NCBI GenBank assembly: GCA_033032175.1
Contig: CM065320.1
Coordinates: 15,395,413 to 15,459,412 of the forward strand
Direction of reading: 5' to 3'
Length of the DNA stretch: 64,000 nt
From: Saturnia japonica
Taxonomy: Eukaryota; Arthropoda; Insecta; Lepidoptera; Saturniidae
Below the pieces are notes generated by a model. The model did not search any database, had not been told where the DNA came from, and saw only the letters and a program-made list of their open reading frames with translations. Shown in pieces: positions 22,601 to 60,155 of this stretch. Each line of letters begins with the position of its first letter. Within the stretch, counting starts at the first letter, position 1. Position numbers and translations under genes: made by a program.

Positions 22601-25600
22601 CATGTACTTCCCGTGTACAAACTTTATCAAAACCAGTTGTTTCTTTTACGAATTCTAAAAGCATTATTGACGATTCTTATAACCTATCAATTGGAGAAAG
22701 ACATGTAGGTACTTCCAGTATAAAAAATTTCAGGTACGTATAGGTACGTTATTAGTCTCCTATAAATTAGATGCCTATTTACAGACAGAACTACATGTTT
22801 GTTAAAATAGGCATACAGGCTAAAAAAGTAATCTACATTCTGTAGGTATCTATAAAATAAATCGTTATTTTAAATTTTTTTGAATTCAATTTCTACATAA
22901 ATTATTTCAAACGAACGAAAGTTAGATATTTATATTAAGGAAAGTAGAAAACAAACTTTCTTATTGAAGAAACAAATTGAAAGATATATAAAAATAGAAC
23001 TGACGAAAATTCAATTATAAATAAATATTCATTTCAAAACTCAGTTGTAATTTCAATGTTCTGTTTGTAAAGCCGTCATCTAAATGTTTCTAATTTTGAA
23101 GCAGTTTTCACTAATTACACAAGGTAAAGTCTCGGAAGACTGAATATTCGATGTGGTATGTGAATTTTCGTGTGATGTTATGTCTGGCTTTATATGTTAA
23201 ACAAGACTTACAAGTCAGTGGAATTAATTATTAGTATAAGCCCGTTTAGGTATATTACGAGATTTCAAACATATTATATGAACACGTAGGAAGTTTATGG
23301 GTTTTTACAAGCACTGGTACATTTACTTTAGAGAGTTTATTTTAAAGTCATTTTTTAGTAATGTTTTTTATAGTAGCACAGCAAAGTGTTCTTGAAGGTG
23401 AGAGCGCAGTATAATCCAAAAAGAAATACGATGTCTGAGATATCAGTGATCTGCCGATGTTAATCGCTGTCGTCTAAACCTCAAGGCAGCTTGATATACA
23501 CGAGCCGATCCCGAAATGAGAGACGGCTAAGCGTGCATTCATGGTAGGTGATACACCTGGTATATGATGATCGAGATCCAGTGTCGTACCATCTAGCTAG
23601 TATCTTTTTGTATAACAAAGTAGATGTTCTAATACCGTACTGTTCCCGGATATAGTAGTAGTAGAAGTATTAGTAGTATATTGTGGTCAGCTCCAGTAGC
23701 CATGGGCTGAAATCACTAGTTAACATTAATTAAGATAGAAAGGCACAGAGATACTTCTTTGGAGAGTTATCTCTACTTGAGGCAGTCCAACTATTGGTTT
23801 TTTTTTTTTTTTTTTAATGTGGAGGGAAAACCCATCATGGGTACACACTCGCCCGGGGGGACGAGTGGTTATGTGAGACTCCTACTCACTAAAAAACTCC
23901 ACGGTGTACCATCCGCCGCCATACTGGGGTGACGCGGGCACTGCGCTGGCATACAGCCGCGCCGCCCCGGCGGCCGGCCCGGCTAACCGGGCCCCGGCCT
24001 AATTAGGAGACAGCTAAGTACACGATAGCCGTCTCCTACGTCCGCCGAACCTGTGCAATGAGGAGACGGGCCCCCCGACCCATCTCCTCTGGTTCAGCTA
24101 GGGTGGCGGGAGTTGGCGGATGAACCGCCTCCTCTTGCCACCCGTTCGTCTTTGGCGGAGAGGGCCGCTCAGGGGATCCCCCTCGCGTACCCTCTCCGCA
24201 GCCTCCTTCTGCGAGATGACTTCCTCGCAGAAGGAGGCCATTGCCTTCCATGCAGTCTCGCTGTCGAGCATGGCTCTCACCACACTCGGCAGCGAGAGGT
24301 CTCCTCCAACAGCTACGGCCAGAGTGCGGCGCTGCTCCACCCACGCAGCACACTCAGACACAGTGTGCTGCGAGCACCTCCGCCTCCAGCTCCCACGGCG
24401 GAGAGCCGGCAAGAGCACAGGCCGCCCCCGCAGACACCGATCGGTACCCACGAATGACCCTCAGCGCCACGACCCGCTGCGTAGCACGCAACACGCGTCG
24501 ATTCGTGGCGCTAAGGGCATCCGACCAGATCGGTGCCCCGTAGACGGCCATGCTCCGCACTACTCCAGAAAATAAGCGGCGACAGCTCGTGCCCGGCCCC
24601 CCCGAGTTTGGAAGAAGCCGGCCGAGAGCCGCCGCCGCTCCCACTATCCGCGGTTCGAGTCCCTTAAAATGGGACTCGAACCGCCAACGACCGTCCAGGA
24701 TGAGGCCCAAATATTTCATCTGGGCCCCAACCCGGACCCTTATACCCTCTACATATATGTGGGCCCCAGGAGGCGGCCCACACCGAGGCCCATGGAAGAG
24801 AAGGGCCTCGGTCTTCTCACCCGCCACCCTAAGGCCCAACGACTTTATGCGCCTGACCACAAGGGCAGTGCCCTCTGTGGCCAGGCGCGCCACCTCCTCA
24901 AAACTTCCTCCCCGGGCTACAACCAGGGTGTCGTCCGCGTAGCACAGCACCCGAATCCCCGAAGGGAGCGCTACGCGTAGCACCCAGTCGTAGCCCATGT
25001 TCCACAGGAGCGGCCCCAGAACCGACCCCTGTGGAACACCACACCCAACGCGACACTGGACCACAGCCCCCCTTCCGTCCACGAAGGCGACCTACCTGTC
25101 CTGGAGGTAGTCCCCCAACAGCCGCCGCAGGTACGAGGGCACTCCGAAAAACCGGAGCGCCTCCCGTATAACACCATGCGGCAGACTGTTGAAGGCGTTG
25201 GCGATGTCAATCGACACCGCCAACAGCCTACCTCCTCCCTCGGTCGCCTCCGCAGACCACTCCTTCAGGGTGGAGAGGGCGTCCAAGGTTGAACGCCCCC
25301 TCCGGAAGCCGAACTGCCGGTCTGATAGTACCGGCCCAATTTCCTCCATGTGCCGGACGACACGAGACGCCAGAATGCGCTCCAGCATCTTTCCCGTGTC
25401 GTCCAGCAGCACAAGGGGCCGGTACGATGACGGGCAGCCCGGGGGGCGACCCTCCTTCGCCAGAAGGCAGAGTCGCCCCACCTTCCAGAGCTTCGGGAAC
25501 CGTCCAGCTGACAAACAACGGTTGAACTGCTCCCGAAGCTCTCCCCCCATGTGCTCCAACGCCACACTTAGAAGCCGGCCCGGACGTCCGTCCGGGCCAG

Positions 25601-28600
25601 GTGCCCTCCGCTTGTTGCGGAGGCGCTCCACCACCGACCCCATCTCCTCCTCGGTGACAGGGGGGGTGGTAATAGCTCCTCCGCAACAACACTCCCATCA
25701 GTCATGGGAGGCGGGAGGAGCTCCGGAGGGTCAGGCAGCAACGTGGCTACGACCCTCGCCAGGACCTCTGAGTCCAGGGACTCCGTTAACGGGGGCGCCT
25801 GCCCCCGGAACTTCTTCCGGGCCACCCGGTATGGGCGCCCCCACGGGTCCCTGTCTAGAGTCCTGAGGAGCTCCTCCCACTGCTCATCCTTTGCCTGGCT
25901 GATGGCCACCTGCAGGGACTTCCTGGCTTCCCTGTAGTGGCCAAGCAGCCTGGCCTCCTCTCCCACTACCTGTGTTTGCCACCGGCGGCAGCGTTGAAGC
26001 TGCCGCCGCGCCGCGGAGCAGGCCACCCGGAGATCGACAATCTCCGGGGACCACCAATACACCGCCCACCTGTTGTGCGGGCGGTTGTGGCCCGGGCATC
26101 GACGCGTCGCAGACCGCCGTAAGGGCCCTACGGAAACGGTCCGCGATCGCGTCAATCTCTTCGTCACTAGGAGCCGGCGCGCGCCAGCTCTGGACTATTG
26201 CCGCCTCTTCAGCAAGCTGCCGATTGAGGCGGCTCACCACCCATCGGAGGAAGTTAGCCTCCCCCCGAGCCCGGCGCGCCAGCTCCCCTGAGGAGGTGGA
26301 GACCCAAAACCAGATATACCGGTAGTCTGAGAAGGTCTCCACCTCCTCCAGCACCCTCCAATCCTGCACACGGCGTGCGACAGACGGTGTGGCGAAGGAG
26401 ACGTCCACCACGGACCCTCCGTTCTGTCGCACGCACGTGTGCACAGCCCCTCGGTTGAGGAGGGACAGCCCAACCTGGACTGCCCACTCCTCCACCACTG
26501 CCCCTCGGGGGTTCGTGACCACCGCTCCCCATGCCCTCGACTTGGCGTTCAGATCGCCAAGCAGGACAACGGGGAGCGGTGACAGCCGCCTAACCACCGG
26601 TCCCAAACTATTGGATTACCTCAACCCAATACAAGATCGCAGTCAAATATCATTGTGTTTTGTTCCTGCGGTAAGTAGTTTCCAGAGCTTCTTAGGGAAT
26701 AGAAGGTTTAAAGGGAGCTAGAACACAGAAATTTATTTGGAGATTTCTCTTTACTTGGGGCAGTCCAAATAGCGGATTACCTGCACTCTATAAGATATCG
26801 CAGCCAAATAACCTTGTATTATGTTCCTGTGGTGAGTAGGATTTCCAGAGCTCCTTGGAGTTTAGCTCCTTGTAGGAGCTACGCCTTAGTTACACCTATG
26901 GTATTGCGTCCGTAGGCTACGATAGCTGCTTAATATCAAACTGGACGTATGCTTGTTGACCACCTTAGTTATATTTTTAAAAACTACATAGCCGTACACT
27001 TTATCACTTCATAAAAAAATTGAATAATGAATCCATTATGGTTGACAGAGTTGGATGGTCTGGATGGCGAGGATTGTGTTTAGCAGCGGATCACAAAGCA
27101 CTGCTTTGGGAAGCGGCGTGCACCCGGCGTTGCCCGCACCGGTCGTCGCACGGCCCATAACACAGGTAAACTTATTTAGTATCAACCTCGTGGACTATGC
27201 GAACAATGAAGTTCGCAAATTCTTTACCGTACCGAGTAGATGTGGAATAGCCTCTCAGCCAACATGTTCCCTCCTACCTATGATATTGGATCCTTCATAG
27301 GAGGCTTACAAAGGTATTTCAGCAAGTTGGTATGACTGCCAATGTTAGTGTTAGCGATGGTTGCTGTTGTTTGTGGACTTAGCATCACGTTCTGTACAAT
27401 CATTTTGCAGAACTAATAGGAAAAAAGCTAAATTTAGTACATATCACAAGGTTAAATGAGATAAATGACCATTGTACCATTTTAGATGTTATATTTGTAA
27501 TACAAGAAGCAAACGCGAAATATTTCTTTCTAACTTTAGGTTATCTATGTAACCTATGCTTATATTTCAGCAAATTTATATATACTAATGGCCTACTATA
27601 CTAGAAGTGTCACATGCGCATTGCCAACCCTTGAAAAACCTGTTCATTTCCCAGTCAAAGACCCTCATATTGTATTACTCTATAAACTATAGTAACCCTC
27701 AGCAGGCAGCTTATTCCACAATTAAAGCCTTCGTGAAAGGAAATTCCTCTGAAACTGCATTATCTAAAACCATTTAAGAACTAAAAAAAAAAACATTTCA
27801 AAACTTAAGAGTATTAAATTGGAATATTTTAATGTGATAAGCCTAAAAGAGAGGCGAAATGTAGCTGCCTTACTCATCTATACAAGATTGTAAATGATTC
27901 TATAGATTCGTTCCTTATCAATTACTCCTACTTTCGATTAAATTCCCGTGCGGTGCGCAACACAAATATATTTTTCATTCCGACTGCAACATTGAATTCA
28001 ATGTATGGCAAGGTTGTATAATGACTTAATGAGAGATCAGGCAACATAAATATATTTTCTCAAGCATTTAGGTCTTTCAAGCATTCGCTATTTAATAATT
28101 CAATATAATTTTATTTTAACGTATAACTTTAATGCAATTTGTTCTGTAATGTGGTTTGGATAACTTTTTTGAAATTTGATGTATTTATATGTCATGCAGG
28201 TCTATTATCTGAAAGATTACACTGAATTTCAATGGAAATGATAATATGTACTTATGCCTTTTTGTAATTACTCTGATGGCGTGCTAAATGTATAAAATCC
28301 ACATATTTCCTTATTAAAAGATGTAAAGCCCAACATGTTCCACTAAAGGACAACTAGACTTAGTGAGAGATTCGATGAGTTCGTTCATTATGCGAACAGC
28401 TAAGGAATGGGGTTTAATCCAAGCTGACTCTTGTTCAAACGGAGGTGAATAGACATCTCATAGGTAAGCGCGATCAAGTCATCGGCCTCGTCTTTACTTA
28501 TCATCACGTAAGATCGAAAGCAAGCGCATACCTACACACCATTGAAAAACAACAAAATTAACGCTTAATTATTTTACCAGGTAATAGAAACAGGAGACGA

Positions 28601-55200: not shown

Positions 55201-58200
55201 TTGTTGCTCACGTTTTCGCGGCTAAGTGCCTTAAGCGCTCGCCCCCAAGCCCCAAGGCTCTATTTTTGGATAGGGCCCCTAAGGCTAACAGTAAGGTCAT
55301 ATCCGAAAAAAAGGCATGTCAAAAAATAAAAACATACCTTCCTTTTTCGCAGTTGGGTAACCACATGATTAATCAGAAAAAGTTTATAACATTTAAAAAG
55401 AAGTACTAAATGAAAAATCAGTAATTAATATTCATCCATTATGAAAATAATAAATACCATTTCTTGTTAGGTCTTGACAATAGCATAATATGCTGATGTT
55501 AAATATGTTCATAAATTAATATTTATTTCTGTCTCTCCATACGTCTGATACCTCAATTATGTTGGTTTTACAAACTTTCTCCAGTATTTTATAGACATCA
55601 AATCTGAAGTAATAAATTTAAAAATGTAGATTAAATATTTACCACGGTCCTACCCCAACCGCTAACTACCACTTCAGTGCCACCCTCCATCGCTCTACCT
55701 ATTGGCGGTAAGTCAATAGGCTGTACTAGTTCTGTGAACTCAATAGGTTTCTCTGTTTGCATAACAGCAACGTCCTTGTCATATTTGGGGTTGTCCCATT
55801 CAGGGTGCGGAATTACTTTGGCTATAGGTATCTGGGTACCGTTCTTACGCCATGAACTGCCGACTCTTAGTACTACTGTTGAAGGGTCCACGCTGAAATA
55901 AATATTCATTGTATATTAGTCCTGTTAACCACATATTATTGTATCTACTTTAAAAATCAGTCCTTATATAGATACCACTTTTAACAAAATACTCATAAAG
56001 AATATTCTAATTTCCTATCCAAATAATAATTAATTATATTTCATTATATATAACTAATTAATACTAACTTATTAGTACATCTAAATAATGTAAAATTACT
56101 ACAAATGTTGGATGCCATGCAAATCACCGCCAGAAGGAAAAGTACCAAGAAGACTGGCCACATTACCTCGTTGTATAGCAATGCTTATTCGTTAACCGAG
56201 GTATTGGCCAGCCCTCTGGTCTCGAGATGTGTCAACCAATCGACTTGCGAATTCTTTAATGAGGCTGCGTGCACTTGGTCAACATGGACCTAGGGTTTCG
56301 ACTCCGGGGCACTATGTCTGGAACCTCCTCGTGGTGTGCCCCGGGCAACGGCGGCCGCTTCACGGCCGACGGCTAATACCAGACCGACGGCGTTTCTCCC
56401 CTGTACCCCTCTGCTCATCAGAGGAGACAGGGGATGGGGCAAGAGTGGACCTGCTTCGGCTCGTCCACTACGGACGGACTCGTCGTTGACGGCGGAGGAG
56501 GAAGAAAACCTCCTTAAAAAATTGAGAGGATTCAACCTCTTTAAAAAATCGCTGACGGCGGTGGAGTAAACCACCTTAAAAAACCTTAGACGGACTGTGG
56601 TGGAGTAAACCACCCTTTAAAAAATCACGGACGGACGGTGGAAGACAACCACCTTAAAAAATTACTGGCCGGAGGTGGAGAAAACCACCAGCATAAAAAA
56701 TCAAGGACGGGTAGTGGAAGGAAACCACTTAAAAAAATAACCAGAGGGTTGAGGATGAGCACCTCGTTAAAAAATCAAAGCCGGATTTGTCGACGACGGA
56801 TGGGACTTTAATGACGGAAGAGGAGGAAACCTCTATAAAAAACCAACGACGGACTGGTGGGGGAGGGGGTGCGTTCATTCGCCTCCTTCTCCTGCCGTTT
56901 CATGGACGGCAGAGGAGAAAACCTCGGTAAAAAATCATAGCCGGGCTAGCGGGGTGGGGGTGCTTTCATTCGCCCCTTACCCCCGCCACATGCTAAACAT
57001 TATGGCAGAGACAGAGGAGAAAACCTCTATAAAAAACCCAACGACGGGTGGGTGGGGGACAGGTGGTGGTTCATCCGCCTCCTTCTCCTGCCAGGCCGAA
57101 CCAAGGGGAGATGGGTCGGGGGGCCTGTCTTCCCATTGCACTGGTTTGGCGGACGGGGAGACAGTTCGTCACCGGGCTGTCTCCGTCAGCGGGCGGCCCT
57201 TCGGGGCCTTGCCGCCGGGGCGGCGCGGCTGAATGCCAGCGCAGTGCCCGCGTCGCCCCAGTATGGCGGCGGACGGCGCACCGTGGAGTTTTTTAGTGAG
57301 TAGGAGTCTCACATACCACTCGTTCCCCCGGGCGAGTGTGTACCCATGACGGGTTTTCCCTCCACGTTAACAAAAAAAAAAAAAAAAAAAAGGGTTTCGA
57401 CTCCAAATAATTTTAAATTCAATTTTATAAATTACTCTACTTGTACAACTCTATACAATTACTGTTCTATTGCAATAGCTGTTTTTATTAACTGTTATTG
57501 TATTTTTAAATCCCTTACTTTTGAGCACAATGAGCGGCCGTCACGAGCCAGTTCTGACTGATGATGAAACATCCACAGAAAAACGAGTTATTGACAACCA
57601 TCGAAGCTTGGTAAGGATGGTTCTCTATAACAGCCTCTTCACCGCCAACGATTCTGTCATCATTCACCACTGGGTCCTGGAGAAATTCTTCGATTGTTGG
57701 AAAGTTTGCAAAGTTCAACCCATACGCTATATAAAATAAAAAAGTATTTTTAGTGCTAAATATAATCGATAATACGATTATGCTTTAAATCAATTGATTG
57801 GTGTGTAAGCTGTGGAAATGAAATTACAAAAACAAGCTAAATTATAAAAACACTTGACTAAGAAAATATGTTTTTCTCTTTTTGCATTTTATTTGATTAC
57901 CAGACGTCGCTTTGCTCGGTATTAAAAAAAAAACACCTATATACTTGAACTTGGAATGTAAAACATTATCTAAATACGAAATTTCATCCAAATCGTTAGA
58001 GCCGTTTTCGAGAAACCAATTACATATATATGTATATACAAGAATTGCTCACTTAATATAATGAAATATAGCCTTTGTCACTCCCACAATTAAGTCGAAT
58101 CTAACGACACCTCGTATGCTAAAATTCATCAAGCCGTTTAGACTACAGAGCGTGCCAAAGAAATAGATATACACACATACGCTACAAAAACAATATCCTT

Positions 58201-59685: not shown

Positions 59686-60155
59686 TCTGAGTGTGCTGCG
59701 TGGGAGGAGCAGCGCTGCACTATGGCCGCAGTGCTCGGAGAAGATCTCTCACTGTCGAGCGTGGTGCCGCGAAGAGAGTTCGCGAGGGGGATCCTCTGAG
59801 CGGCCCTCTCCATCAGAGACGAACGGGTGGCTGAAGGAGGCGATTTATCCACCAACTCCCGCCACCTTAGCCGAACCAGGGGAGACGGGTCGGGGGCCCG
59901 TCTTTCCATTGGATAGGTTCGGCGGACGGAGGAGACAGCTAGGGTGTACTGAGTTGTCTCCTACTTAGCCCGGGGCCTGTAAATGCCGGGCCGGCCGTCG
60001 GGGCGACGCGGTTGTATGCTACCGCAGGTCCCGCGTCGCCCCATCGAGGCGGCGGATAGTACACCATGGAGTTTTAGTGAGTAGGAGTCTCACATAACCA
60101 CTCGTCCCACCGAGCGAGTGTGTACCCATGACGGGTTTCTCCACGTTAAAAAAAA
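59686..60155 (+). mobile_element. Truncated R1-clade LINE 3' end
   Basis: Starts inside the C-terminal codons (gtgtgctgcgtgggaggagc, agcgctgcactatggccgc), with an internal deletion relative to the 23.8-kb copy, then the shared 3' UTR (ggagacgggtcgg, gagtaggagtctcacataac, cgggtttctccacgtt) and a short A-run. A (CT)n stretch borders the 5' end. Confidence 0.8.

Follow-up and report, generated by a model that had tools for sequence, protein, structure and literature searches.

A putative HDV-like ribozyme at the exact 5' end of a non-autonomous retroelement (SIDE) of Saturnia japonica and of its likely R1-clade LINE partner

Among the retrotransposons, SART is a member of the R1 clade. The telomere-specific SART is listed with an HDV-like ribozyme in PMC11620745, which cites Ruminski 2011 and Weinberg 2019, and it inserts into (TTAGG)n repeats in the TTAGG-sense orientation (PMC7265360). 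HDV-like ribozymes are also located at or near the 5' end of R2, R4, Dong, Baggins, L1Tc and RTE, with cleavage at the element start in several of these (PMC3774820). The preliminary description of the present locus had called the class established for R2 and some other non-LTR elements. The R2/R1 hybrid SIDEs of Drosophila, which are thought to use the proteins of R1, carry an HDV-like ribozyme for which cleavage was shown in vitro (PMC3414825).

The SIDE described here was found in a 64,000-nucleotide stretch of Saturnia japonica DNA (contig CM065320.1, positions 15,395,413 to 15,459,412 of the forward strand), referred to below as the window. Like the Drosophila R2/R1 SIDEs it is non-autonomous and combines a 5' HDV-like ribozyme with an R1-type 3' end and a 14-bp target-site duplication; the Drosophila elements occupy the R1 site of the 28S rDNA and have an R2-derived ribozyme, whereas the present family is dispersed over degenerate TTAGG-like sites and has an R1-clade LINE with a homologous ribozyme (PMC3414825). 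R2, R4, Dong, Baggins, L1Tc and RTE are other elements and are autonomous, unlike the SIDE (PMC3774820). SART is autonomous and telomeric, whereas the SIDE is a small, non-coding derivative spread over the chromosomes, with a SART-like partner. A lepidopteran SIDE with both ends in common with its LINE is known in Persaeus, whose partner belongs to CR1/Zenon and not, as here, to the R1 clade (PMC6740152). The features of the window are summarized in Table 1.

Table 1. Features of the SIDE, its putative ribozyme and the related LINE sequences in the window (positions of the window)
Feature	Position	Strand	Basis
HDV-like ribozyme, putative; predicted cut before 56306	56306..56384	+	Rfam models, own covariance model, covariation
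P1 5' strand GGGGCAC, 7 bp with 56336-56342	56306..56312	+	sequence, 29-row alignment
P2 5' strand GTCTGG, 6 bp with 56379-56384	56316..56321	+	sequence, 29-row alignment
P3 ACC/GGT, 3 bp (56323-56325/56333-56335), closing L3 TCCTCGT	56323..56335	+	sequence
P1.1 CC/GG, the CC from L3	56327-56328/56343-56344	+	sequence
P1 3' strand GTGCCCC	56336..56342	+	sequence, 29-row alignment
GGGCAAC joint	56343..56349	+	sequence; identical in 25/29 rows of alignment A4
P4 stem-loop, 56349-56357/56363-56371, one G.A mismatch	56349..56371	+	sequence, 29-row alignment
Putative catalytic C in J4/2, followed by TAA	56373	+	sequence; C in 29/29 rows of A4
P2 3' strand CCAGAC	56379..56384	+	sequence, 29-row alignment
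Left target-site duplication AGGGTTTCGACTCC, 14 nt	56292..56305	+	abuts 56306
Non-autonomous retroelement (SIDE), 1086 bp including 20-nt poly(A)	56306..57391	+	ends and genome copies
Hairpin array, each small hairpin followed by A6-A7, 11 A-runs	56495..57036	+	sequence
3' region common to SIDE and R1-clade LINEs	57061..57371	+	84% identity to window LINE 23798-24133
Poly(A) tail, A20	57372..57391	+	sequence
Right target-site duplication, leading A merged with poly(A)	57392..57404	+	sequence
R1-clade LINE remnant (endonuclease and reverse transcriptase, broken frames)	23798..26615	-	3' end as in SIDE, 84% identical
Second piece of the common 3' end	59870..60155	+	79% identical

The element had been described as non-autonomous, and its coding content agrees: a reverse transcriptase frame is absent, the longest frame has 107 aa from an ATG/GTG/TTG start and 153 codons from stop to stop, and a Pfam scan of the six frames of the SIDE returned 0 families. 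A tRNA-derived SINE was considered and rejected, as ARAGORN detected 0 tRNA-like heads in the SIDE. A hairpin of 4-7 bp, with G-U pairs admitted in the scoring, stands before each of the 11 A-runs at 56516-57036; the array is possibly protein-binding or an A-rich spacer. Two trypsin-domain exons (PF00089) flank the SIDE on the minus strand (55631-55912 and 57515-57784). The SIDE thus seems to lie, in antisense orientation, within an intron of a trypsin-like gene, whose own transcript would then lack the sense SIDE RNA that could be cut out.

The nested double pseudoknot P1-P2-P3-P1.1-P4 is complete in the window copy by sequence, Rfam, descriptor and alignment, and every helix drawn in the preliminary description is present. 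The active-site letters of the Rfam consensus, i.e. a pyrimidine-rich L3, a GGGCAAC-type joint and a C in J4/2 before TAA, were likewise found as described there. The C at 56373 is what we take to be the equivalent of C75. The start of the fold coincides with a boundary that is set independently by the target duplication.

The covariance check that had been proposed gave a graded answer. The Rfam scan of the window at the default gathering threshold listed nothing. Below that threshold, RF02682 aligns end to end with 56306-56383 (37.9 bits, E 0.0019 for the 64-kb window; gathering 44), and RF00094 aligns end to end with 56304-56387 (37.8 bits, E 0.074 for the 64-kb window; gathering 50). In the genome, RF02682 was scored on 62 of 20514 candidates and yielded 57 matches with an E value of at most 10; 25 of these, all outside the window, exceed the cut-off of 44. 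As a control, the same model had matches in 6 of 14 well-known genomes, none of them above the cut-off. With an own covariance model the window copy scores 100.3 bits, the window sequence itself being among the members of the model. A descriptor of the pairing topology alone gave 21 matches in 40 locally shuffled strands; when the P1.1 bases were required, the two strands of the window together gave a single match, at 56306, and 400 shuffled strands gave 0. The descriptor was composed with the candidate already known, so that these counts check frequency and do not amount to a blind prediction. Plain MFE folding did not set the window copy apart from shuffled sequences (z -0.55), the MFE program being unable to draw pseudoknots.

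Among 1668 candidates for SIDE copies in the 580-Mb genome of the same organism, 40 were scored, with identities of 97-100%, and 30 of the 40 were read. All 30 start at the same base as the window copy, so that the placement of the ribozyme at the exact junction of duplication and element, first noted in the window, extends to other copies. L003 has GAAG for GGGG at its start, and its P1 and P1.1 pairings are broken. A duplication of 12-17 nt is present in 25 of the 30 copies; in 23 of them it lies directly at the start and in 2 it is 2-3 nt away, with 2 extra nucleotides between duplication and start in L004 and 3 in L013. No duplication of that length was found for L014, L015, L018, L020 and L029. 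Because the query began at base 1 of the SIDE and the best scores were kept, the sample is biased toward full-length, young copies; the adjacency of the duplication to the start is evidence free of this query bias. L010 and L011, which agree in duplication and flanks, probably represent a single insertion. The left flanks of the 30 copies, compared pairwise with the low-complexity filter on, gave no match at E 1e-5, and a common 28S rDNA R1 site was not found, as flanks and duplications differ among the 30 copies (L010 and L011 alike). Among the 30, mean pairwise identity reaches 98.8% for the ribozyme and 98.0% for the 410 nt that follow it, which indicates that the copies are recent. The catalytic C is replaced by T in 2 of the 30, L018 and L024.

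Ribozymes were fetched for 20 of the 57 RF02682 matches, and revealed further SIDE subfamilies with a different P4, plus a third, LINE-like 5' end. The resulting alignment A4 comprises 29 rows, including 5 of the 30 SIDE copies (L018 and L024 are both outside it) and 4 of the 9 ribozyme-bearing LINE copies treated below; damaged copies, e.g. L107 and L113, were kept. In A4, 95.0% of the cells are paired, versus 30-45% when the partners are slid by 1-3 columns, and two-sided changes occupy 49 cells, versus 14.5 in shuffles (reached in 0 of 500); such cell and score measures are open to inflation by relatedness, and since the rows are related the cell counts overstate the number of events. The structure had been drawn on one of the rows. 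Counted by pair, seven changed on both sides (two in P1, two in P2, three in P4), versus 5.5 expected, and 104 of 500 shuffles reach seven. Further pair types are fewer than expected, below most shuffles. P2 pair 15-75 is broken in 7 of the 29 rows, and P3 is invariant in all 29. In each of two other alignments three pairs have two-sided change, a number reached by 19 of 500 shuffles for A2 (15 rows) and by 91 of 500 for A3 (4 rows). The compensatory changes in P1 and P2 that the preliminary description had asked for in other copies were thus seen, in A2 and A4.

The fold could instead be a conserved relic, or a promoter or RNA-binding element comparable to the Pr77 hallmark of L1Tc, kept for reasons other than cutting of RNA. 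A promoter role of Pr77 is named in the title of PMC4748587, and the MFE fold of the window copy is not unusual. On the other hand, the two-sided changes in P1, P2 and P4 across subfamilies suggest that pairing, and not sequence, was kept, and the letters of the core are retained in most rows of A4 (L3 in 27 of 29, the joint in 25, J4/2 in 29). A role unconnected with cleavage is accordingly judged improbable, and the reading as a self-cleaving ribozyme is preferred.

The LINE partner was identified by its 3' end and its proteins. In the PDB, the endonuclease of the window LINE and that of a fuller copy match chains of TRAS1 and R1 and no others; the best match is TRAS1 of Bombyx, an element with a telomere-repeat endonuclease (PMC7265360). 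The partner thus has an APE endonuclease and a reverse transcriptase of the R1 clade, the clade being read from the best PDB matches. Of 9548 candidates from a protein search, 150 were scored, and their open frames reach 1188 aa. Among 30 LINE loci that were retrieved, one of them in the window, 27 contain part of the SIDE 3' region at 76-86% identity. The second piece of this 3' end in the window, preceded by a frame that has no Pfam match, probably stems from a LINE copy truncated at its 5' end.

The 5' regions of 24 LINEs were read, 4 over 7 kb and 20 over 0.9 kb. Nine begin with an HDV-like ribozyme (L061, L062, L067, L075, L078-L081 and L085), which led to rejection of the idea that the ribozyme is peculiar to the small element. 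In 8 of these nine the target-site duplication adjoins the ribozyme, directly or at a distance of 1 nt; for the ninth, L078, the script finds no adjoining duplication, and by eye AGGATCGAACCTT is seen 10 nt upstream of the start. L078 and L080 have flanks in common, and the first frame of L061 is split. No ribozyme was found in the stretch read for the remaining 15 of 24, some of which are truncated or represented by a reading that stops short; L064 looks 5'-truncated, and several lie behind the poly(A) of another element. In L069, L074, L076 and L083 a poly(A) and a GGTTA-type motif precede the LINE, with no HDV-like match at the start; they may represent a second type of 5' end or truncation. 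Two Rfam microRNA families match the window opposite the coding strand of the R1-clade LINE, mir-3389 at 24984-25052 (+) with 55.5 bits (E 6e-08, gathering 75) and mir-9242 at 24200-24239 (+) with 29.1 bits (E 0.61); weak mir-9242-like matches recur in L069. These families may be retrotransposon fragments.

Similarity between the 5' ends of SIDE and LINE covers SIDE bases 1-79 (11-79 with L061) and stops at the end of the ribozyme; it amounts to 87% over 79 nt with L062. Between the ends only the hairpin units match, one small hairpin and A-run unit of the LINE 5' region being multiplied in the SIDE. At both ends, the SIDE thus agrees with a LINE of this genome that is likely autonomous. The likely dependence on the R1 clade, which the preliminary description had proposed, gains from the LINE-type 3' end of the SIDE and from the R1-clade LINEs of the same genome with a homologous ribozyme. 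As this partner, likely autonomous, also begins with the ribozyme, the SIDE probably inherited it by internal deletion. Acquisition from R2 by recombination, for which the Drosophila hybrid SIDEs are a precedent (PMC3414825), would not involve the R1-clade partner as the source; the homologous ribozyme at the 5' ends of these LINEs, together with the 5' hairpin that they too have in common with the SIDE, makes such an origin very unlikely, and inheritance from the R1-clade LINE is retained as the probable origin. Chance resemblance within a GC-rich repeat, which the frequency of the bare topology in shuffled strands and the window score under the Rfam gathering threshold might suggest, was rejected as practically negligible in view of the shuffled-strand counts with P1.1, the coincidence with the duplication junction, the 25 genome matches above the RF02682 cut-off and the pairing kept across the subfamilies of A4.

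Twenty-one SIDE copies with a clear duplication, aligned on its first G, have G(13)T(18)T(14) at positions -9 to -7 and A(19)G(21)G(18) at -1 to +1, the G at 0 being partly forced by the anchoring. This context has the register of GTTAGGTTAGG. In SIDE and LINE alike, the duplications mostly start with AG or GG. Twenty upstream stretches of 94 nt were read in addition, from 15 RF02682 matches and 5 LINE 5' ends, a sample biased to small contigs and chromosome ends. At least two tandem TTAGG units are present in 9 of the 20, and a poly(A) run precedes 13 of the 20 copies. Ribozyme-bearing copies thus occur within (TTAGG)n arrays, and the notion of telomeric LINEs without and dispersed LINEs with a ribozyme was dropped. 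Insertion of the SART type, sense along TTAGG, was found in these 9 of 20 of the biased sample, other LINE copies being dispersed; SART has been described in this orientation, and TRAS inserts into TTAGG arrays the other way round (PMC7265360). A lepidopteran host is in keeping with TTAGG arrays that contain stacked R1-clade elements and with contigs of chromosome scale. On contigs C321 and C39 a reverse-transcriptase match lies about 3.8 kb downstream of the LINE 5' end, the spacing of a full LINE. In L117, L118, L121 and L123 (and L119, with two more bases) the letters just upstream close with GGGGTGCGAT, with which the element itself begins; we infer a 15-nt duplication that arose by insertion of a new copy at the border of an older one.

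The core GGAACCTCCNCGTGGTGNNNCCCGGGCAACG has 484 + 523 = 1007 exact occurrences genome-wide, SIDE and LINE forms together. The reversed core pattern, used as a control, occurs 0 times genome-wide, and a scan of viral contigs for the core gave 0. At C1:4441721-4533572, a stretch of about 92 kb, the plus strand contains eleven cores, perhaps an interstitial telomere-type array.

Taken together, 56306-56384 is very probably an HDV-like ribozyme fold at the exact 5' end of the SIDE, likely cutting the SIDE RNA from read-through transcripts for copying by a SART-like R1-clade LINE. According to the mechanism proposed, the SIDE arose from a ribozyme-bearing LINE by internal deletion, with the ribozyme retained. 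Its RNA would cleave itself out of a co-transcript between 56305 and 56306, leaving, by analogy with R2, a 5' hydroxyl; as the SIDE has no need of translation, the missing cap would cost little. The freed RNA, by way of its LINE-type 3' end and poly(A), would be bound in trans by the LINE reverse transcriptase, the LINE endonuclease would nick degenerate telomere-repeat-like sites of about GTTnnnnYAGG, and reverse transcription would proceed to the 5' end defined by the ribozyme. The extra nucleotides at the junctions of L004, L013, L078 and L079 would fit end-joining after full-length reverse transcription.

According to the preliminary description, a ribozyme is not known to have been reported for a non-autonomous, R1-clade-dependent element in Lepidoptera. 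For R1-clade elements in general such ribozymes are not new, as SART (PMC11620745) and the Drosophila R2/R1 SIDEs (PMC3414825) were already reported; with R2 they make the ribozyme class a known one, of which the SIDE family is a further member. For a lepidopteran SIDE the statement holds within the literature search, which found no paper on one with a ribozyme and covered few of the subscription journals; the word ribozyme is absent from the main text of PMC6740152, PMC4016481 and PMC7265360. The SIDE family appears to be a new member, set apart by its R1-clade partner with its own ribozyme, its dispersal over telomere-like sites, its hairpin array and its copy number.

The analysis thus yields a computationally well-supported putative ribozyme at the 5' end of both a telomere-repeat-inserting R1-clade LINE and its non-autonomous derivative. 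In a bolder proposal, to which limited credence is given, a retrotransposon that builds telomeres and its runaway non-coding rider would have one and the same catalytic RNA as their 5' module. Where (TTAGG)n stretches and elements are stacked head to tail, this RNA would cut read-through transcripts of the telomere into templates of unit length, so that processing of telomere transcripts and retrotransposon-based telomere extension would depend on RNA self-cleavage. The rider, which needs neither cap nor translation, would have exploited such cutting to hitch-hike in any transcript and to settle at hundreds of host loci. With 1007 exact copies of the core, a single genome provides a large natural set of variants for linking self-cleavage, full-length insertion and parasitism. 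If the mechanism is true, a promoterless small retroelement can spread by excision from other transcripts.
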